35,769 bases of DNA from a candidate division WWE3 bacterium RIFCSPLOWO2_01_FULL_39_13 (GTDB lineage Bacteria > Patescibacteriota > WWE3 > 2-01-FULL-39-13). Both the position numbers and the translations under genes were made by a program. Positions 1 through 21,185 of this stretch are shown here, piece by piece. The notes under the pieces are model-generated. The model had not been told where the DNA came from, did not search any database, and was given only the letters and a program-made list of their open reading frames with translations. The DNA is taken from the NCBI GenBank assembly GCA_001772665.1, contig MEVH01000007.1:41107-76875 (forward strand), written 5' to 3'. Each line of letters opens with the position of its first letter. Positions within the stretch are counted from its first letter, which is position 1.

Positions 1-2814
1 AACGCGCTTAATTTATCAACGGGTGGAAGTGAACGATTGAGAATAGATAATGCGGGCAACGTCGGCATCGGGACGACGGGACCGAGTGACAAGCTTTCAA
101 TTGGATCAGCAGCTAACCCAGGGGATTTGTCAGTATATTCTGGGACAGCGGCTTCTGATAATCTCAGTTCTCATTATGGGTATCTTTTTAGAAATGCATC
201 AACCTTTGTCAACTTTGCCAGTTTGGACAGTAGTAATAATGTCCATTTGGGGACAAGCGCAAATGCAAATTTACAACTATATACAAATAATTTGAGACGA
301 GTCACGATAGATAATTCTGGCAACGTCGGCATCGGGACGACGAGTCCAAATTCAAAGTTAGAAGTCAACGGAGTAGGCTCATTTAGTTTGGGTGCAGTAG
401 GAGCTCCTGGCATTAGTTTTAATGGGGATTTGGATACAGGAATGTGGTCAAGTGGAGCTAACGCGCTTAATTTATCAACGGGGGGAAGTGAGCGGTTGAG
501 AATAGATAGTTCGGGCAACGTCGGCATCGGGACGACGAGTCCTGGAGCAAAATTACATAGCAATATTGGATCTGGTGCAGCCGATGCTATGGCAGGTTAT
601 TTTTATGGGTCAACATCGTTGGGTAATACTTTCACTGATATTGCTGGGCGAACAAGGACTATGGCAACCTTAGTTGCTGGAAATAACTGGGGTGATGCAA
701 ACGGCAATGTTCTTAATGTATATTCAGCCATAGGTGATGGGTTGTTATTTGTCAAGGCAAGCGGCAACGTCGGCATCGGGACGACGAGCCCAAATTCAAA
801 GTTAGAAGTCAACGGAGTCGGTTCTTTTAGTTTGGGAGCAGTTGGAGCTCCTGGCATTAGTTTTAATGGGGATTTGGATACAGGAATGTGGTCAAGTGGA
901 GCTAACGCGCTTAATTTATCAACGGGGGGAAGTGAACGAATGAGAATAGATAGTTCGGGCAACGTCGGCATCGGGACGACGAGTCCTGGAGCAAAATTAC
1001 ATAGCAATATTGGATCTGGTGCAGCCGATGCTATGGCAGGTTATTTTTATGGGTCAACATCGTTGGGTAATACTTTCACTGATATTGCTGGGCGAACAAG
1101 GACTATGGCAACCTTAGTTGCTGGAAATAACTGGGGTGATGCAAACGGCAATGTTCTTAATGTATATTCAGCCATAGGTGATGGGTTGTTATTTGTCAAG
1201 GCAAGCGGCAACGTCGGCATCGGGACGACGAGCCCAAATTCAAAGTTAGAAGTCAACGGAGTCGGTTCTTTTAGTTTGGGAGCAGTTGGAGCTCCTGGCA
1301 TTAGTTTTAATGGGGATTTGGATACAGGAATGTGGTCAAGTGGAGCTAACGCGCTTAATTTATCAACGGGGGGAAGTGAACGAATGAGAATAGATAGTTC
1401 GGGCAACGTCGGCATCGGGACGACGGGGCCTTCGGCAAAGTTAGAAGTTAACGGCCAGGTAAAAATAGACGATTTAACTGCAGCAGGAGGCGCCGACGCC
1501 GTCCTGTCATCAGGAGGCATTTTAACCACCGTTTCCTCCAGCCAGAGATATAAAACGAACATATCCGACTACAGCAACAAAGATATTCTCGGCATTGTGA
1601 ACAAACTTCGGCCAGTAAGCTTTGACTGGAAAGATAACACACTAACCCCAGGTATGCACGACTTCGGACTAATAGCCGAAGAAGTTTACCAGATCGCCCC
1701 AGAACTCGTGACATACGAAAAAGACGGCACAACAATAAGAGGAGTCAAATACGACAGACTCCCAATTCTTCTAACAAAAGCTGTTCAGGAATTATCAGCA
1801 GTAACAGATTCCCAGCAAATCGAAATAACAGCAATAGGAACACAAAACAAAACCGCAGAAGAAAAACTTCTCACACTCGAGCAAACGCTATCCTCAATCA
1901 AACTAGATGAAAACGGAAACATAATCACCACCGAAACCGACATTAACACCCAGCTCACAACAGTCCAGGACACAATCCTAAACCTTGAACAAAGAATAGC
2001 AATACTAGAAAATGCACAAACCACGCAAGACGCACAAGATACACAGCCAACCGATACCAGCCAAAACCAAAGCAACACTTTAGAACCAGCACTACCCAGC
2101 GGACCCCAACAACAACTAAACGAACTCACATCAGGCTACGAACTCCTAACCACAAAAATCAACCTACTCGAACAGATATACCAAAATTCAGCTACCGATA
2201 ACCCTGAAACGCCAGCACAACCAGAAAACCAGCTCTTCACACAAGAAAACGAGCTAAACATCCACCTAGACAAAAACCTTACCATCTTCAAAAACCTAAA
2301 CGTACTAGGATCAGTAACGCTAGTAGACCTTGCCACAACAGGAAACATCACAGCCGGACTAATAGAAATAAACAGCACCGAACAATCAATAAACGCAATA
2401 GGCACAAAACTACAACTACAAAATCAGCCAGGAGCAGACAACATCGAAATCTTCGCAGGCAAAATAGTACTAACAAAAGAAGGAAATATACAACTAAACG
2501 GACAAATCACAGCCAACAAACTCAACATCACAACCCAAAACCCATCAGACGAAAATACCGACACCAGCCAGCAAGCCGATTCAGAAGGGATTGTATCCGC
2601 AGCATCAGCAGGCAAAACCAAAATCTCAAAAGGACAAACAACAACAACAATAGAAACCATAGCCCTCACACCAAACTCACTAATCTTTGTAACCCCAGAA
2701 AAACCCATACCAATAGGAGCACAAAAAAACACACAAACCGAAAACTCATTCACCATAACCCTCTCTGAACCACAAGAAAAAGATCTAGAAGTCAACTGGT
2801 GGGTTATTAATTAA
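1..2814 (+). CDS. Repeat-bearing surface/tail-fibre-like protein with internal Peptidase_S74 domain (5' truncated)
   Basis: The frame is open from the first base, so the gene starts outside the window; the TTG at 37 is not a real start. Bases 1-1425 encode repeats built around SGNVGIGTTSP, a motif of trimeric phage tail fibres and secreted CPR proteins. At about 1531-1795 lies a Peptidase_S74 (intramolecular chaperone) domain with SSQRYKTNI, LRPVSFDWK, HDFGLIAEEV and GVKYDRL. In phage fibres this domain trimerises the stalk and cuts itself off just before its N-terminal Ser. Here about 340 residues follow it: a Gln/Thr-rich coiled coil (about 1800-2200), a beta-rich part (2250-2560), a Ser/Thr linker, and a C-terminal beta-domain (about 2610-2811) ending NWWVIN, as I recall from many CPR surface proteins. 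It is probably secreted, but the signal peptide is outside the window. Codon use changes near 1500: T/G-ending before, A/C-ending after. Function as an adhesin is inferred. Confidence 0.85.
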   Translation, partial: NALNLSTGGSERLRIDNAGNVGIGTTGPSDKLSIGSAANPGDLSVYSGTAASDNLSSHYGYLFRNASTFVNFASLDSSNNVHLGTSANANLQLYTNNLRRVTIDNSGNVGIGTTSPNSKLEVNGVGSFSLGAVGAPGISFNGDLDTGMWSSGANALNLSTGGSERLRIDSSGNVGIGTTSPGAKLHSNIGSGAADAMAGYFYGSTSLGNTFTDIAGRTRTMATLVAGNNWGDANGNVLNVYSAIGDGLLFVKASGNVGIGTTSPNSKLEVNGVGSFSLGAVGAPGISFNGDLDTGMWSSGANALNLSTGGSERMRIDSSGNVGIGTTSPGAKLHSNIGSGAADAMAGYFYGSTSLGNTFTDIAGRTRTMATLVAGNNWGDANGNVLNVYSAIGDGLLFVKASGNVGIGTTSPNSKLEVNGVGSFSLGAVGAPGISFNGDLDTGMWSSGANALNLSTGGSERMRIDSSGNVGIGTTGPSAKLEVNGQVKIDDLTAAGGADAVLSSGGILTTVSSSQRYKTNISDYSNKDILGIVNKLRPVSFDWKDNTLTPGMHDFGLIAEEVYQIAPELVTYEKDGTTIRGVKYDRLPILLTKAVQELSAVTDSQQIEITAIGTQNKTAEEKLLTLEQTLSSIKLDENGNIITTETDINTQLTTVQDTILNLEQRIAILENAQTTQDAQDTQPTDTSQNQSNTLEPALPSGPQQQLNELTSGYELLTTKINLLEQIYQNSATDNPETPAQPENQLFTQENELNIHLDKNLTIFKNLNVLGSVTLVDLATTGNITAGLIEINSTEQSINAIGTKLQLQNQPGADNIEIFAGKIVLTKEGNIQLNGQITANKLNITTQNPSDENTDTSQQADSEGIVSAASAGKTKISKGQTTTTIETIALTPNSLIFVTPEKPIPIGAQKNTQTENSFTITLSEPQEKDLEVNWWVIN
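319..1425 (+). repeat. 444-bp tandem coding repeat (2.5 copies seen)
   Basis: Units start at 319, 763 and 1207 (period 444 bp, 148 codons); the third is cut at about 1425 where the S74 part begins. Units 2 and 3 look identical over their shared length, while unit 1 differs at a handful of sites, mostly synonymous. Bases 1-54 are the end of an earlier unit. Each unit is two sub-blocks of 195 and 249 bp, and every sub-block opens with the same 24-nt core (starting GGCAACGTCGGC) at 55, 319, 514, 763, 958, 1207 and 1402. This suggests recent unequal crossing-over; copy number may be variable or mis-assembled. Confidence 0.95.
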
Positions 2815-3046
2815 AAACACCGAAAGGCTTTAATATCCTGCGTCCCGGCTTTTTATGGTACTCTATATTTTGACCAAAAGACGAGACTTTTCCTTCATAA
2901 AATCCGGGGTCAGACTTCACGTTTAGGTTGTTAACAAGCCAAAATCCTGCCTTTTGCATTGATTTAACCGTATCTATAGGCTTTTTGACAGAATTTGCGT
3001 GCTTTTGGCAAACAGCTTGTGCAGTCTTATATTCCCCGTCAAACAT
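2807..3046 (-). CDS. Hypothetical protein, 79 aa
   Basis: I do not recognise the family. The product is small, basic and probably cytosolic, with no membrane segment or clear motif; it contains two Cys-poor helical stretches and ends KPFGVFN. The start is supported by a promoter reading into it on the minus strand: TTGACA (complement of 3075-3080), a 16-bp spacer, TATTGG (3053-3058), then 6 nt to the ATG, the spacing seen at other leaderless genes in this window. It is tail-to-tail with the S74 gene and overlaps its last 8 bases, and it is divergent from abiEi. It may be a fragment; confidence is modest. Confidence 0.45.
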   Translation of the reverse strand: MFDGEYKTAQAVCQKHANSVKKPIDTVKSMQKAGFWLVNNLNVKSDPGFYEGKVSSFGQNIEYHKKPGRRILKPFGVFN

Positions 3047-3052
3047 TTGAGA

Positions 3053-3107
3053 CCAATAGAATCCATAGCTTTGTTGTCAAAAAGCGAAAAGCCGGTTGTG
3101 TTATACT
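3053..3107. promoter_or_regulatory. Divergent promoters sharing a -35 region
   Basis: Minus-strand promoter: TTGACA at 3080-3075 and TATTGG at 3058-3053, 6 nt before the ATG of the 79-aa gene. Plus-strand: an extended -10 TGTTATACT (TATACT at 3102-3107) lies 8 nt before the abiEi ATG at 3116. A TTGTCA at 3074-3079 overlaps the minus-strand -35 but is 22 bp away, so the plus promoter probably relies on its TGn element. Confidence 0.45.
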
Positions 3108-3115
3108 ACGCATAT

Positions 3116-3658
3116 ATGCAAAGTATAAACAGACTCGGCGTCTTGCTTAAACAGCCTCAAAAACTGTTTCATACCAAAGATCTTGAATTATTGTGGCATA
3201 TAAACAATAAAAGCACTTTGTATTCAACAATCAATCGTTATTTAAAGAAAGGCTACTTAATTCAGATATACCGTGGATTTTATTCCACTGTAGAGCCGAG
3301 TAGTATTAACCCGCTTGAGCTTGGAACCTCCGCCATCCACGAATACTGCTATCTGAGCACCGAATCAGTTCTGGCAAAAAGCGGTATTATATTTCAAAAT
3401 ATTCCGTATCTCACCTTTTGTTCATCCAAGAATAGGAAATTTTCAATTATCGGACATTCATTTATAAGCCGACAACTAAAACCAGCTCTTTTGTTTCAAA
3501 GCGCTGGCATTATAGAACAGCCCAATTATAAAGAAGCCAGTCTAGAAAGGGCAGTTGCTGATATGCTTTACTTTAATCCCAGCTATTATTTTGACGCCAA
3601 AGATCAAATCAATTGGGATAAAGTAAATTACATAAAAAAGGAGGTTTACAGACAATGA
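3116..3658 (+). CDS. AbiEi-type antitoxin / winged-helix transcriptional regulator
   Basis: The 180-aa product has an N-terminal winged-helix region (about residues 10-55, with FHTKDLELLW, STINRYLKKGYL and IYRGFYS) followed by the AbiEi-like domain with YLSTESVLAKSGII and ERAVADMLYF. AbiEi proteins are antitoxins of type IV AbiE toxin-antitoxin systems; they repress their own operon and counter the AbiEii nucleotidyltransferase. I chose the ATG at 3116 rather than the upstream in-frame codon at 2999, because the family begins with this helix and a TATACT box lies just before it. The stop overlaps the next ATG (ATGA at 3655), the usual antitoxin-toxin coupling, but the toxin gene that follows is broken. 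Confidence 0.75.
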   Translation: MQSINRLGVLLKQPQKLFHTKDLELLWHINNKSTLYSTINRYLKKGYLIQIYRGFYSTVEPSSINPLELGTSAIHEYCYLSTESVLAKSGIIFQNIPYLTFCSSKNRKFSIIGHSFISRQLKPALLFQSAGIIEQPNYKEASLERAVADMLYFNPSYYFDAKDQINWDKVNYIKKEVYRQ

Positions 3659-3829
3659 TACTGCCTAACCCAATTAATAAGCTTTATCGAAAAAAAAGTT
3701 ACCGAAACAATAATCAACGAAGACATTAACATGATATTGCCCTATACAAAGTTTTCAGCTATTAGGAAATCTTTAAAAGAGGAGGTTTTGAGCTTGTTAA
3801 GAGATGAAATTGGACGAAGTAATTCTTAG
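3655..3829 (+). pseudogene. Remnant of the gene coupled to abiEi (probably toxin AbiEii)
   Basis: The ATG at 3655 overlaps the abiEi stop and opens a frame reading MILPNPINKLYRKK that hits a stop after 24 codons. Removing one A from the A8 run near 3691 restores a frame running to the TAG at 3827-3829, giving a product of under 60 residues with ETIINEDINMILPY and SLKEEVLSLL. AbiEii toxins are about 250-300 residues, so there is both a frameshift and a large internal loss. Identity as AbiEii is inferred only from its place after AbiEi; the remaining sequence shows no nucleotidyltransferase motif. The 160 bases after it hold no gene I can support. Confidence 0.5.
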
Positions 3830-3989: not shown

Positions 3990-4562
3990 ATGACATACAC
4001 CAAATATTATACAAAAAAATCATTCGACTCTAGCCCCGCCGTTGGGCAAAGCGAGACAAACCCATATAACAAAACAAACTCAAACCAAAAACCCAAAAGC
4101 ACCCTCGAATACGAAAAATTCCGCGTCCGCGGACATATAAAAAGCTTCAGAGATTTAGAAATATATAAACAAACCACCGACCTCGCATCACAGATATTCC
4201 TCCTCATCCTTCCACAAACCCTCCCGCAAAAAAACCTCATACAACCAGAACTCGAAATCCTAAAACAAATAGCAAAAATCATCCCGAAAACAATCGCCGA
4301 AGCATTCGGAGACAGATACACCGACAGAAAACTCGCATACATCAAACTCGAAACAGCAATGAGAACCACATCAATACTAATCGCCAAAATCGACTTTCTA
4401 ATAGCAATGATCACACACCAAGATACCAAACAAGAACTCGTAAAATTAATAAACAAATATCAGATACAAAAAAGAAAAACCCTAAACCTTAAAAGAGCAT
4501 GGGAAAAAACCGACGAAAAATTCGGCCCAAAATTTGGTTCTGCGAGCCCTAAAAATGAATGA
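3990..4562 (+). CDS. Four-helix-bundle protein (23S rRNA intervening-sequence protein family)
   Basis: The 190-aa product has SFRDLEIYKQTTDLASQIF at about residue 51, the hallmark opening of the S23/IVP four-helix-bundle family, followed by helices with ILKQIAKIIPKTIAEAFG, KLAYIKLETAMRTTSILIAK and IAMITHQ. Family members occur inside 23S rRNA intervening sequences, as Avd in diversity-generating retroelements, and as stand-alone CPR proteins; their exact role is unclear and they are thought to bind nucleic acid. About 45 N-terminal residues are an Asn/Ser/Lys-rich tail not seen in the core family. It overlaps the next gene by 8 bp, which indicates translational coupling. Codons end almost always in A or C, unlike the ATPase downstream. 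No reverse transcriptase is seen nearby. Confidence 0.75.
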   Translation: MTYTKYYTKKSFDSSPAVGQSETNPYNKTNSNQKPKSTLEYEKFRVRGHIKSFRDLEIYKQTTDLASQIFLLILPQTLPQKNLIQPELEILKQIAKIIPKTIAEAFGDRYTDRKLAYIKLETAMRTTSILIAKIDFLIAMITHQDTKQELVKLINKYQIQKRKTLNLKRAWEKTDEKFGPKFGSASPKNE

Positions 4563-5628
4563 AACCAACCCCCTCCAAACAAAAACTCCTGATGTCTGCC
4601 CATATTGCCAGGGCAAACAAATAACAAAAAAAGGAATAAGATCAAAAAAATACGAACAAATCCAAATATATTACTGCAAAAAATGCCAGAAAAAATTCAC
4701 CGCATCATATACCAAAGGCAAAACCTATCCCTTAAAAATCATACTCGACGCAGTCACCGCCTATAACAGACTAAACTCACTTGACCAATCAGCAAACACA
4801 ATAACACAAAAATACGGCATAAAAATAAGCCCGCAGAATGTTGCAAATTGGGCAAAATCCCTTCGCAAGCACCTTAGCTTTTTACGCATGAGAGAATTCG
4901 TAAATAAAAAGTATGACAAACATGACGTTTTTATAGAAACCCAGATGTTTCATGGACAAATATACAACTTCAAATACCACAGAGCTAAAACCGACTTAAT
5001 ACTAGACGAAGACTTCAAGCATTATAAACTAAGAGCAATTCAAGAATTTTTAGAACTTGTAGTTGCAGAATGCCCGCACCAGGCGTTTAAAGAAAGCACT
5101 AAAAGAGCCTCAGAGTACAAAAATGTCTTTAACCTTGATCAGGTAAAAATATCACCAAAAACAAACACTGCCAATGAAAACACGAGATTAATACTTCAGT
5201 CTGTCGCAAACAATAAACTAAGGCACGAAGTCTTGCAAGAATTCATGCTGGTAAACGATTCGGTTACAATAGCCTGCGAAATACCAGTAATACTTGACTA
5301 CGACGACATCTGGCATTACAAAAACACCTTGGGCTTTGATGTACCGATTAAAATAGCCGAAGACGAAAAAATAACAGGACACATAGACCTTTTACAAATC
5401 AGAAACGGTCAGATACATATTTTGGATTATAAGCCAAGCGCCAAAAAAGCCAAACCTGTCGACCAGCTAACCCTATACGGACTTGCACTCGCCAGACTCA
5501 CAGGCCTAAGATTAATTCACTTCAAATGCGCATGGTTTGACGAAAACGACTATTTTGAATTTTATCCACTGCATGTTGTGTACAAAAAGTTCCCATCTAA
5601 AAGAAAGAAAAAAAGCAGAAGCCATTGA
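4555..5628 (+). CDS. Zinc-ribbon / HTH / PD-(D/E)XK nuclease fusion protein
   Basis: Start: ATG at 4555 in ATGAATGA overlapping the previous stop; the in-frame TTG at 4534 is less likely. The 357-aa product has three parts. Residues 15-48 form a CPYC...CKKC zinc ribbon followed by KKFT, as in transposase/InsA-like N-termini. Residues about 60-108 look like a helix-turn-helix (TITQKYGIKISPQNVANWA). The C-terminal half has a RecB/Cas4-like nuclease core: GHIDLL (Asp), ILDYKPS (D-x-K) and QLTLYGLAL (motif IV Gln...Tyr). So it probably binds DNA and cleaves it; the partner is the four-helix-bundle protein encoded just upstream. It lacks the Cas4 Fe-S cysteine set, and no cas genes or CRISPR array are nearby. 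Codon bias is shared with the upstream gene in its first two thirds. The biological role is unknown. Confidence 0.7.
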   Translation: MNETNPLQTKTPDVCPYCQGKQITKKGIRSKKYEQIQIYYCKKCQKKFTASYTKGKTYPLKIILDAVTAYNRLNSLDQSANTITQKYGIKISPQNVANWAKSLRKHLSFLRMREFVNKKYDKHDVFIETQMFHGQIYNFKYHRAKTDLILDEDFKHYKLRAIQEFLELVVAECPHQAFKESTKRASEYKNVFNLDQVKISPKTNTANENTRLILQSVANNKLRHEVLQEFMLVNDSVTIACEIPVILDYDDIWHYKNTLGFDVPIKIAEDEKITGHIDLLQIRNGQIHILDYKPSAKKAKPVDQLTLYGLALARLTGLRLIHFKCAWFDENDYFEFYPLHVVYKKFPSKRKKKSRSH

Positions 5629-5659: not shown

Positions 5660-6835
5660 GTGGAGTCTCTGAATTTAGGCAAAATATACATTCCAAGAAC
5701 TATAGAGCCGTTAATTAAGGGTCAGCTATTCAAAGGCAAGGTGATTGTAATCTACGGAGCCAGGCAAGTTGGCAAAACCACCTTAGTAAAAAAATTAGTA
5801 AGTGAGCTTTCTAAAAAAACCAGCACTTATCTAAACTGTGATGAGGCGGATATACAAAGCAGACTAAACGAAGCAGATACATCAACAAAACTGCGCTCAA
5901 TAGCAGGGGACAGAGAAATTGTTGTCATAGATGAGGCGCAGAGAATAAAAAACATTGGATTAAAGTTAAAGTTATTAATTGATACCTACCCAAACCAGCA
6001 ATTTATTGCAACAGGCTCTTCGTCTTTTGAGTTGTCAGATGAAATCTCGGAACCCTTAACTGGGAGGTCTTTAGAATACTGGCTTCATCCCTTATCACTT
6101 GTAGAGCTCTACAATGCCTTCGGAGAGCTTGAGCTAACAAGAAATCTCGAAAATATCATGATTTACGGATCTTACCCCAATGTTGTTGACGTGGTTTCTG
6201 AGCAAGACAAGAGGGCTATTATTAACAATATAGCCACCAACTATCTTTACAAAGATGTGCTTAAATTTGGCGGTTTAAAAAGCGCCGAAATTATTCGAAG
6301 CCTTCTGCGTGCGCTAGCCCTTCAGGTGGGAAGCGAAGTCTCTTATTCTGAAATTGCGCAGCTTATTGGGGTGTCAAAAGAAACGGTATCAAATTATATT
6401 GAACTTTTGGAAAAAGTTTACATTATATTTAGGCTTAACCCTCTTAGCCGAAACCTTAGAAAAGAAATAGGAAAACTTAGAAAGATATATTTTTATGACG
6501 TAGGTATCAGAAATGCCCTTATTAATAATCAAAACCCATTAAACATGCGCAGCGATGTTGGGGCGCTTTGGGAAAATTTAATGATTGCAGAGAAAAAAAA
6601 GCAGGAAAATTTCATTGGGAATAAACTTTCACTCTATTTTTGGAGAACATACGACCAACAGGAAATTGACTTAGTAGAAGAGAAGGGCGGGGGATTATGG
6701 GCTTATGAATTTAAGTGGCGTAAAAATAAAGCTAAAAAGCCACCCAAGGCTTGGATTGACGGCTATCCAAACTCAGCATGGGATGTGATTACAAATGAAA
6801 ATTTTAATACCAGCTACGTCTTACCGCATACTTAA
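5660..6835 (+). CDS. ATP-binding protein, AAA_14 + DUF4143
   Basis: 391 aa, starting at a GTG placed right after a good promoter. Walker A GARQVGKTT (residues 33-41), Walker B VVIDEAQRI (about 87-95), a sensor-like ATGSSSFEL, then LTGRSLEYWLHPLS, all typical of the AAA_14 domain. A winged-helix part (YSEIAQLIGVSKETVSNYI) precedes the DUF4143 C-terminus, which has a PD-(D/E)XK-like core: EIDLVEE then YEFKW. The family is widespread in archaea, CPR and anaerobes; its physiological function is not established and is often listed as a probable nucleic-acid-linked ATPase. A paralogue lies at 20049-21185. The gene is convergent with rplL. Confidence 0.85.
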   Translation: MESLNLGKIYIPRTIEPLIKGQLFKGKVIVIYGARQVGKTTLVKKLVSELSKKTSTYLNCDEADIQSRLNEADTSTKLRSIAGDREIVVIDEAQRIKNIGLKLKLLIDTYPNQQFIATGSSSFELSDEISEPLTGRSLEYWLHPLSLVELYNAFGELELTRNLENIMIYGSYPNVVDVVSEQDKRAIINNIATNYLYKDVLKFGGLKSAEIIRSLLRALALQVGSEVSYSEIAQLIGVSKETVSNYIELLEKVYIIFRLNPLSRNLRKEIGKLRKIYFYDVGIRNALINNQNPLNMRSDVGALWENLMIAEKKKQENFIGNKLSLYFWRTYDQQEIDLVEEKGGGLWAYEFKWRKNKAKKPPKAWIDGYPNSAWDVITNENFNTSYVLPHT

Positions 6836-9155: not shown

Positions 9156-9698
9156 CTAAGGTTTTGTCCGAAGGTTATTCCCTCTTTTTTTATCCTCCTT
9201 ATTTTCAACCTTTTTACGGAAGCTATTGACGTAGATAATATACTTTCTAAACTTTCTTAACAAGTAAGAAAATCCATTTTTATTAGGAACAATTAATTTC
9301 ATCATCTTATCTTTTGAATCTAGATATTTAATTAAGCAGTGGAAATCTCCATCCCCAGAGACTATTACCGCCTTGTCATAATTAGGATATTCGATCATCG
9401 AATGCAATACTAATTCGGCGTCAACATTACCTTTAATTAATCGGTCTTTGGAATTTATCTCAAGTGTTGGTTTGAATATCAGAATATATCCCGATTCCTG
9501 GAGGTACTTGTATAGTCCTTCATTGCTTGGAACCATACCAATAAAAAGATATGATTTTTGCGCCTTATATTTGTCTTTAAGATATGTTCTAAATCTTGCG
9601 AAATCTAGCACCCAGCCTTGAGACCTGACTCCGAGGTTTAAATTCTGGCTATCTATAAAAGCGTAAATTCTTTCTTTCTTTCTGTTTTTATTCTGCAT
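9156..9698 (-). CDS. NYN-domain (LabA/DUF88-type) PIN-like ribonuclease
   Basis: 180 aa. The PIN-like fold is shown by AFIDSQNL (Asp16, Asn19), KGNVDAELVLHSM and IVSGDGDFHCLIKYL, the three acidic motifs of the NYN/DUF88 family, which are metal-dependent RNases or RNA-binding proteins. The C-terminus is Lys/Arg-rich (RKKVENKEDKKRGNNL), consistent with RNA binding. It sits between rplK and rplA, two genes normally adjacent, which suggests a link to ribosome or RNA metabolism; that link is inferred. The start has a weak TAAACT box 5 nt upstream on the minus strand. Confidence 0.85.
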   Translation of the reverse strand: MQNKNRKKERIYAFIDSQNLNLGVRSQGWVLDFARFRTYLKDKYKAQKSYLFIGMVPSNEGLYKYLQESGYILIFKPTLEINSKDRLIKGNVDAELVLHSMIEYPNYDKAVIVSGDGDFHCLIKYLDSKDKMMKLIVPNKNGFSYLLRKFRKYIIYVNSFRKKVENKEDKKRGNNLRTKP

Positions 9699-13780: not shown

Positions 13781-13855
13781 AGGCCTGTGGTGAAATTGGT
13801 ATCACGGCGGTCTCCAAAACCGCTATTCTGGGTTCGAGTCCCAGCAGGCCTGCCA
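13781..13855 (+). tRNA. tRNA-Trp (CCA)
   Basis: Acceptor AGGCCTG (13781-13787) pairs with CAGGCCT (13845-13851); anticodon stem GCGGT/ACCGC with loop CTCCAAA (anticodon CCA); T-arm CTGGG-TTCGAGT-CCCAG; G73 and encoded CCA (13853-13855). The 3' end is part of a 51-bp tandem duplication. Confidence 0.97.
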
Positions 13856-13942
13856 GAAGAGAAGTCTCCAGTCGCCTTCGGCGACCGAGTCCCAGCAGGC
13901 CTGCCAGAAGAGAAGTCTCCAGTCGCCTTCGGCGACCGAGTC
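13835..13942 (+). repeat. 51-bp tandem duplication of the tRNA-Trp 3' end
   Basis: Units 13835-13885 and 13886-13936 are identical, followed by 6 bases (CGAGTC) of a third. Each holds the 3' half of the T-arm, the acceptor 3' strand, CCA, and a hairpin GTCGCC-TTC-GGCGAC. Only the first copy belongs to a whole tRNA. tRNA 3'-end duplications are typical of integration sites, but no element or integrase lies between the copies. Confidence 0.95.
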
Positions 13943-14186
13943 AAACGGGAGCTTTCAAATTCTTATCCCAATTTAATGAAATCGTTTTAACACCGTCATT
14001 AAATAGCGCTTAAACGACGGAAATATTCGACGCATCCTATATGAAGTAATAAAGTATTGACATCTTGCGCATATAGGCCATAGTTTTGATTAAGGTTGTG
14101 GATTGTCACTCCCTTGACCTGTCCTTTAATTGCGGTTTTTTAGATACAAGGTCTAAGGAACTGTTTTAAATAGGTGGTGATGGTTG

Positions 14187-20048: not shown

Positions 20049-21185
20049 ATGTTAAATAGATCTTTAAAAAGCATTGTTATTGAGGCTTTAACAACTACTA
20101 ATAAGGGGGTTATTATATACGGTGCCAGGCAGGTTGGGAAAACCACACTCGCAAATGAAATAATTCGCTCTCTTGGGCTAAGAACCCTTATGGTTAATGC
20201 TGACCAAAGTAAGTATTTCGACATATTGTCAAGTCGTGATGTAAATAAGCTTAAAAACTTTACCGAGGGGTATGATTTATTATTTATTGATGAAGCGCAA
20301 CGCATACCTGAGATAGGTATTAATCTTAAAATAATCTTGGATAATTTTAAGAATTTAAAGGTTGTTGTTACAGGATCGTCTTCTTTGGATTTAGCAAGCA
20401 AAATCAGCGAGCCTTTGACTGGACGGATATTGACTTACAAGTTATACCCGATTTCTTTTCTTGAATTATCATCATTCCTTAATAAATTTGAACTCGATGC
20501 ACAGTTGGAAGAACGCATGATATATGGATCTTACCCTGAGATTTTCTCTATAGTCGGCGAAAATAATAAAAGAGAATATCTGCAAAATCTTAGTGATAGT
20601 TATTTATATAAGGATTTGTTAGAACTGGGAGACATAAGAAATTCATCAAAAATAAGGGACTTATTAAAATTGCTGGCATTTCAAATTGGCTCCGAAGTAT
20701 CAATGTCTGAACTTGGTTCAAGCTTAGGAATGGGTAAAGATACCATTTCACGATACATTGATTATCTAGAAAAGTCATACGTAATTTTTAGTCTAGGCGG
20801 TTTTAACCGCAATTTAAGAAAAGAAGTAACGAAAATGGACAAGATCTATTTTTATGATCTAGGTATTCGAAATATTCTTATTGATAATATGAAACCAATA
20901 AAAGACCGAGTCGACGCAGGGCAGTTATGGGAAAACTTTATAATAGTAGAAAGAATCAAGTACCTGGCATATATTCAGAAATATGCATCATCGTACTTCT
21001 GGAGATTATATACGGGTGCTGAACTTGACTATATAGAAGATTCTGAAGGATCTTTAAAGGGTTTTGAATTCAAATATGGCGGGAAAAAAGTTAAAAAGCC
21101 GAACGGATGGACTCTAGCATATCCCAAAGCATCTTTTGATTGTATAAACATGAGTAATTATTTGAATTTTATAGCAGGGCTATAA
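20049..21185 (+). CDS. ATP-binding protein, AAA_14 + DUF4143 (paralogue)
   Basis: 378 aa, same architecture as 5660-6835: Walker A GARQVGKTT, Walker B LLFIDEAQRI, VVVTGSSSLDL, LTGRILTYKLYP, winged helix with MSELGSSLGMGKDTISRYIDYL, and a DUF4143 nuclease-like core (ELDYIED then FEFKYG). The two proteins share most motifs but are clearly diverged, so this is an old duplication or separate acquisitions. A TTGACG (20011-20016) with TAGTCT 16 bp downstream could be its promoter. Not in an operon. Confidence 0.85.
   Translation: MLNRSLKSIVIEALTTTNKGVIIYGARQVGKTTLANEIIRSLGLRTLMVNADQSKYFDILSSRDVNKLKNFTEGYDLLFIDEAQRIPEIGINLKIILDNFKNLKVVVTGSSSLDLASKISEPLTGRILTYKLYPISFLELSSFLNKFELDAQLEERMIYGSYPEIFSIVGENNKREYLQNLSDSYLYKDLLELGDIRNSSKIRDLLKLLAFQIGSEVSMSELGSSLGMGKDTISRYIDYLEKSYVIFSLGGFNRNLRKEVTKMDKIYFYDLGIRNILIDNMKPIKDRVDAGQLWENFIIVERIKYLAYIQKYASSYFWRLYTGAELDYIEDSEGSLKGFEFKYGGKKVKKPNGWTLAYPKASFDCINMSNYLNFIAGL

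Follow-up and report, generated by a model that had tools for sequence, protein, structure and literature searches.

A nuclease and four-helix-bundle gene pair linked to giant fibre genes: a candidate homing-endonuclease module of CPR bacteria and DPANN archaea

The stretch analysed here (the window) comprises 35,769 nucleotides from candidate division WWE3 bacterium RIFCSPLOWO2_01_FULL_39_13 (GCA_001772665.1, contig MEVH01000007.1, positions 41,107 to 76,875). Downstream of a giant fibre gene it carries two overlapping genes on the forward strand. The first, FHB (3990-4562, 190 aa), encodes a basic four-helix-bundle protein with a divergent 23S_rRNA_IVP/Avd-like fold, the bundle spanning approximately residues 54-177. 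The second, NUC (4555-5628, 357 aa), combines a zinc ribbon, a helix-turn-helix (HTH) region, a central domain and a PD-(D/E)XK nuclease. NUC-FHB probably represents a new family of homing endonucleases that have a four-helix-bundle protein as cofactor and spread by cutting fibre genes. In 18 related loci the pair sits between the two halves of split inteins. A sequence-only reading of the window had proposed a mobile or defence module; given this placement and the constant linkage to fibre genes, the proposal is recast as a probable homing-endonuclease module, and its mobile part is retained.

Split inteins around the pair in relatives

NUC relatives were surveyed using one genome per species. 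This found 125 relatives, for which 80 loci were returned; neighbourhoods were counted over 82 loci, and conservation was assessed in an alignment of up to 69 rows. Inteins carry a homing endonuclease between their halves. In 13 loci the upstream fibre open reading frame (ORF) ends in an intein N-half, and the ORF following FHB begins with a C-half, after which the fibre sequence resumes. These 13 relatives thus have the fractured-gene layout, with intein halves in separate ORFs and the nuclease gene between them. One intein half was seen in five more loci where the contigs are cut, for a total of 18. NUC-FHB therefore occupies the intein endonuclease position in these relatives, and the window copy is linked to its fibre gene only.

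The intein halves were recognised by TIGR01445 (9.3e-6), TIGR01443 (1.5e-9) and PF14890 (6e-11), and their splicing residues are kept. The N-half has Cys1 in block A (CVTGDT...) and the block B motif TxxHPY; the C-half closes on AHN/T, with Thr at +1, in the form ...DIEVEGTHNFVGNGILAHN/TY (the slash marks the end of the intein). The N-extein often ends in GIGTTxPxxKLHVxG(Q/N/S) and the C-extein starts with TY(I/L)xG. The split thus falls within the fibre repeat pattern. The four ORFs are closely spaced and operon-like in one locus (L061), and in another (L080) a single reading frame joins the intein N-half to NUC. Mapped on the NUC tree, the intein setting switches at least 8 times. Near one NUC-FHB locus, an apparent gyrA-like gene (L104:2870-6733, reverse strand) has a separate intein C-terminal match with Cys at +1.

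Linkage to giant fibre genes

In the usual layout a giant fibre gene, with a Peptidase_S74 chaperone domain and/or GIGTTSP repeats, is followed on the same strand by NUC and FHB. In 55 of 82 loci a fibre gene was recognised no more than 2.5 kb away on the same strand, and many of the remaining loci have little sequence on that side. A search of 13 genomes for S74 found seven positive, each with exactly one match, and all seven have NUC. In all of them (7/7) this sole S74 match precedes NUC by 0.65-2.9 kb, in the same orientation. NUC is even fused to a fibre ORF in one intein-free locus (L059). The window follows the same layout: the 3' end of a giant S74/GIGTTSP-repeat fibre locus (37-2814, forward strand; Peptidase_S74 9.6e-12) extends upstream past the window start. 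Given this constant association and the split-intein placement in 18 loci, a reading of the pair as an isolated two-gene module is not supported.

Domains and active site of NUC

The NUC start codon is the ATG at 4555, and residue numbering begins at codon 4558. The 8-bp overlap between the 3' end of FHB and the 5' end of NUC, reported previously, follows from the gene coordinates. Third-position A/C/G/T frequencies are 0.49/0.35/0.06/0.09 in FHB and 0.42/0.29/0.10/0.18 in NUC, compared with 0.27/0.18/0.24/0.31 in topA; both genes favour codons ending in A or C. By codon use the gene nearest to FHB is NUC, while NUC is about equally distant from FHB and from the upstream fibre gene. The odd codon bias that had been ascribed to the pair is therefore real, but it is common to the fibre locus and not specific to the two genes.

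The N-terminal zinc ribbon (4597-4686, CxxC..CxxC, with C14, C17, C40 and C43) is IS1/IS1595-like and matches NCBIfam NF050000 with an E-value of 1.8e-4, below that model's cut-off (22.0 against 28). Across relatives C40 and C43 are invariant, and C14 and C17 are found in 68 of 69 rows. The HTH region (4732-4860) consists of helices 59-70, 75-86 and 92-101 in the AlphaFold2 secondary structure, and the IS1 transposase model NF033558 matches residues 14-104 with an E-value of 3.5e-5. The transposase-like ribbon and HTH noticed earlier are thus supported by IS1-type models. NUC does not belong to IS1/IS1595 by the ribbon score, and no DDE domain match was found in it.

The nuclease active site (5278-5478) contains E241 (5278), GHID 274-277 (5377-5388), the DYK motif 290-292 with D290 and K292 (5425-5433) and QLTLY 303-307 of the QxxxY type (5464-5478). 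These E, GxxD, DxK and QxxxY motifs in a PD-(D/E)XK fold are those of the RecB/Cas4-like superfamily. Pfam PDDEXK_1 matches at 28.1 bits (E 2.3e-6, cut-off 22). The AlphaFold2 model has a mean pLDDT of 93.1 and a pTM of 0.89, and its best Foldseek matches are AddAB and RecB nuclease domains and Cas4, with modest E-values (4e-3 to 3e-2). Both results bear out the RecB/Cas4-like assignment made from the sequence alone. E241, Q303 and Y307 are kept in 69 of 69 relatives, and G274, H275, D277, D290 and K292 in 68 of the 68 with letters at those columns. Conservation of the nuclease residues among homologues, which had been named as a check, is therefore complete in every relative covering the columns, including E241, D277, D290, K292, Q303 and Y307. 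PDB sequence searches with NUC and with FHB gave nothing convincing.

Fold and family of FHB

The AlphaFold2 model of FHB consists of four helices, with pLDDT mostly above 95 within the bundle. The top three Foldseek matches include 8ub7_B, the Avd subunit of a diversity-generating retroelement (DGR) reverse-transcriptase complex, and 2rld of the S23/IVP family; none of the matches reaches an E-value of 1e-3. The window FHB scores 13.5 bits against the 23S_rRNA_IVP/four-helix model (PF05635, TIGR02436), under the curated cut-off of 33.8, and a profile comparison with a single IVP protein found no confident match, the template being one sequence. Among FHB family members, PF05635 matches 19 of 59 at E <= 0.01 (best 6.5e-9). 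The suggested kinship of the partner with IVP and Avd proteins is upheld by the structural matches and by these 19 relatives. The family median isoelectric point is about 9.4 for both NUC and FHB, and such strongly basic proteins fit nucleic-acid binding.

The Avd match raises the question of whether the pair serves a DGR that diversifies the fibre, FHB acting as its Avd and NUC as a helper, and the neighbouring gene does encode a surface-type protein. The sequence-only reading had noted no reverse transcriptase, and an RVT_1 search of the window's whole genome agrees. Reverse transcriptase is also missing from 8 of 10 other NUC genomes searched and elsewhere lies on another contig. A DGR accessory role is extremely improbable overall, and for the window it is largely refuted by the absence of the enzyme from its genome.

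Besides FHB, NUC-FHB cassettes contain or adjoin further four-helix proteins with clear TIGR02436/IVP matches of up to 1.3e-22 (L064:923-1237; L040:1886-2245 and 3422-3787; L049:1410-1775; also L059, L068, L073 and L075). Another locus (L066) holds a TIGR04258 'four helix suffix' protein.

Pairing, distribution and signs of transfer

In 45 genomes of the window's class, searched with a profile of each family separately, full-length NUC was found in eight and full-length FHB in the same eight, adjoining it. Neither family profile found a full-length member in the other 37. The co-occurrence is significant (Fisher p 4.6e-9), and FHB adjoins NUC in 69 of the 82 loci. The two families, whose co-occurrence had been proposed as a check, hence travel together. 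A chance pair of ORFs is excluded by the 125 NUC relatives and the 1:1 co-occurrence within the class. Several of the 13 loci without an adjoining FHB end at a contig edge. Several others (L032, L072, L113-L115) branch deepest in the NUC tree, and FHB may therefore have joined after NUC arose.

The returned NUC loci come from Patescibacteria, DPANN archaea, Omnitrophota and one Anammoxibacter. Phage and plasmid collections contained no NUC match and IMG/VR a single weak partial one, so a viral origin appears unlikely on present sequence data. The window NUC is 66% identical to a Gracilibacteria protein and about 59% identical to proteins from metagenome-assembled genomes (MAGs) of Nano-/Pacearchaeota, compared with 46-50% for most of its own class. 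Its 13-row clade in the NUC tree mixes DPANN archaea with bacteria of the candidate phyla radiation (CPR) (SH-aLRT 100). Decayed NUC pieces were detected in L037, shortly after a fibre gene, and in L034, where a stop codon interrupts the sequence. Patchy occurrence in the class, a horizontally mixed tree and decayed remnants are thus all present, as in a homing module.

In three locus pairs (L078/L104, L042/L043 and L102/L107) DNA similarity is confined to NUC or NUC-FHB and the flanks are unrelated. Together with the IS1-like ribbon and HTH (3.5e-5), this would be expected if NUC were a transposase-like protein with PD-(D/E)XK catalysis, moving itself by cut or copy without homology. However, each genome has one full-length NUC copy, the preference for fibre genes is strong and there is no DDE domain, which makes a transposon very unlikely.

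The same distribution bears on a function in the service of the host. NUC-FHB might nick or cut the GIGTTSP repeats and drive repeat recombination, resulting in antigenic or host-range variation; the pair would then be kept for the benefit of the cell and the inteins would be secondary. The cis linkage to the fibre is constant, the window fibre gene carries long near-identical repeats, active-site conservation is universal and the FHB fold is Avd-like, all of which suit such a role. Yet the pair is missing from 37 of 45 class genomes, takes, in 18 loci, exactly the place of the endonuclease in split inteins, has a horizontally mixed tree and leaves decayed copies. Host-serving fibre diversification accordingly keeps a small probability. 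A homing system of two components, in which a four-helix nucleic-acid chaperone is obligate and mobility has been domesticated so that the giant surface fibres of CPR/DPANN episymbionts are reshuffled, is quite unlikely; in it, NUC-FHB and the trans-splicing inteins would vary the host-contact structure.

The window copy and its neighbourhood

In the window FHB precedes NUC, an order shared by most of the 13-row clade of the window NUC. The window fibre gene ends normally and the pair stands outside inteins. Upstream on the same contig (L137, positions 25000-44500 of that contig) the fibre locus continues across N stretches, and a scaffold gap separates the ORFs. A fibre ORF of 2281 aa there (L137:3493-10338) has an N-terminal phage-integrase SAM-like domain and four tandem contiguous inteins, located at the same kind of fibre site as in the split loci of relatives. 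Intein 1 has an NYN domain at the endonuclease position, and the inserts of inteins 2-4 gave no confident family assignment. NYN inserts also occur in related fibre inteins at two more loci (L138, L139). The NYN of the L137 intein shares 45% identity with a free-standing one located between an intein N-half and NUC (L086), suggesting that these elements exchanged parts. As other inteins at like fibre sites carry NYN or unassigned inserts, fibre genes look like a hotspot of mobile inteins.

Between the window fibre gene and FHB lie AbiE-like genes, which are neighbours and stand outside the pair: an AbiEi-like gene (2999-3658, forward strand; AbiEi_4 18.7 bits, below cut-off), then internally deleted AbiEii-like remains (about 3634-3817) whose fragments are 63% and 50% identical to a related locus (L070). 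The 3' flank of the fibre gene could thus be an integration hotspot, with NUC-FHB as one of several parked defence or toxin-antitoxin-like modules, because AbiE-like, AAA_14/DUF4143 ATPase and NYN genes share the neighbourhood and NUC has a weak PADLOC match (2.6e-5) to an Argonaute-associated Cas4-like nuclease (Aga_Cas4-like). No such neighbour is as constant as the fibre gene, however, and hotspot cargo would not explain why the pair lies between intein halves among closely spaced ORFs. The PADLOC match is partial, FHB has none and no full system was found, so the defence part of the earlier proposal is not supported. Parked cargo is an unlikely explanation.

AbiE-like genes also adjoin NUC in two other genomes (G011, G012). 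The window has two AAA_14/DUF4143 ATPase genes (5660-6835 and 20049-21185), and ATPase genes that look similar are found beside CPR and DPANN NUC loci (L024, L042, L044, L108, L116). An NYN-type gene (9156-9698, reverse strand) lies between rplK (L11) and rplA (L1); its nearest relatives in the data set are in NUC loci (L072 at 65%, L089, L106, L038). A related locus (L025) has no NYN gene between rplA and rplK. From tRNA-Trp on, positions 13781-13990 hold a short tandem repeat encoded on one strand (VPAGLPEEKSPVAFGDR), with a repeat on the other. An RNA-family search of the window found only tRNAs.

Proposed mechanism

In the homing model, the zinc ribbon and HTH of NUC would recognise a site in or beside element-free fibre genes, the PD-(D/E)XK domain would cut it, and repair from the occupied copy would transfer the module. 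Inside fibre coding sequence the module would be wrapped in a split intein, and trans-splicing would rejoin the fibre halves. Just behind a fibre gene, as in the window, splicing would be unnecessary, and the pair would behave like a homing-endonuclease gene that stands free but is linked to its target. FHB may be a basic nucleic-acid-binding cofactor, perhaps in target search, DNA bending or strand annealing.

Several points weigh against homing. Most loci are post-fibre and not embedded in an intein. There is no intein trace beside the window pair, where the fractured-gene layout is not found, and the pair is outside any intein throughout its 13-row clade; position alone is therefore no proof of homing there. 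A search for empty sites with joined exteins found no clean uninterrupted allele, the fibres being too divergent. MAG binning could inflate cross-domain transfer on short archaeal contigs, and the lost flank similarity in the locus pairs could partly stem from fast fibre evolution. The fully conserved active site, together with the scarcity of decayed copies, could also reflect a function that benefits the host.

If the homing model is true, NUC would be a PD-(D/E)XK type of homing endonuclease with an apparently obligate protein partner, found in cellular genomes and not phages, across the boundary between bacteria and archaea among episymbionts. Inteins are usually found in replication genes; here split, trans-splicing inteins would be placed in surface-fibre genes. 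One branch of the orphan IVP/Avd-like four-helix family would gain a testable role. The conserved split inteins and the possible two-part site-specific nuclease are potential tools.

Comparison with known systems

NUC resembles the RecB, AddAB and Cas4 nucleases in fold and in the core motifs E, GHID, DYK and QxxxY, but differs from them in its N-terminal ribbon-HTH and in having no helicase or CRISPR context. With IS1/IS1595 transposases it shares an N-terminal zinc ribbon and HTH; it differs in lacking a DDE domain and in its single copy per genome. The fold of FHB is common to 23S_rRNA_IVP/TIGR02436 proteins and DGR Avd, but the partner of FHB is a nuclease, where those proteins go with an rRNA insert or a reverse transcriptase.

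Fractured genes, in which split inteins have a free-standing endonuclease gene between their halves, were reportedly described by Dassa and colleagues in 2009 (in NAR). The cases are said to be mainly phage-like loci with a Vsr-like nuclease and DNA-metabolism host genes. They are like NUC-FHB in that split intein halves lie in a host gene with one or more separate nuclease ORFs between them, and in that the nuclease family also occurs alone, free of inteins. NUC-FHB differs in its RecB/Cas4-like PD-(D/E)XK nuclease with a transposase-type ribbon and HTH, its near-constant four-helix partner and its location in cellular CPR/DPANN fibre genes. Dassa et al. 2009 is cited in PMC10448857.

LAGLIDADG homing endonucleases are found in rRNA introns of CPR bacteria, for example I-ShaI (PMC11270868). 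They share with NUC a wide spread in CPR genomes, but differ in nuclease fold, in host gene (rRNA) and in splicing element (introns). A literature search, partial in coverage and weak as evidence, found nothing linking CPR/DPANN inteins, PD-(D/E)XK nucleases or the four-helix partner together. By this comparison fractured genes appear to be the closest precedent for NUC-FHB. Their description fits the relatives, whereas the window copy is more aptly described as a free-standing member of the family that is linked to a fibre gene.
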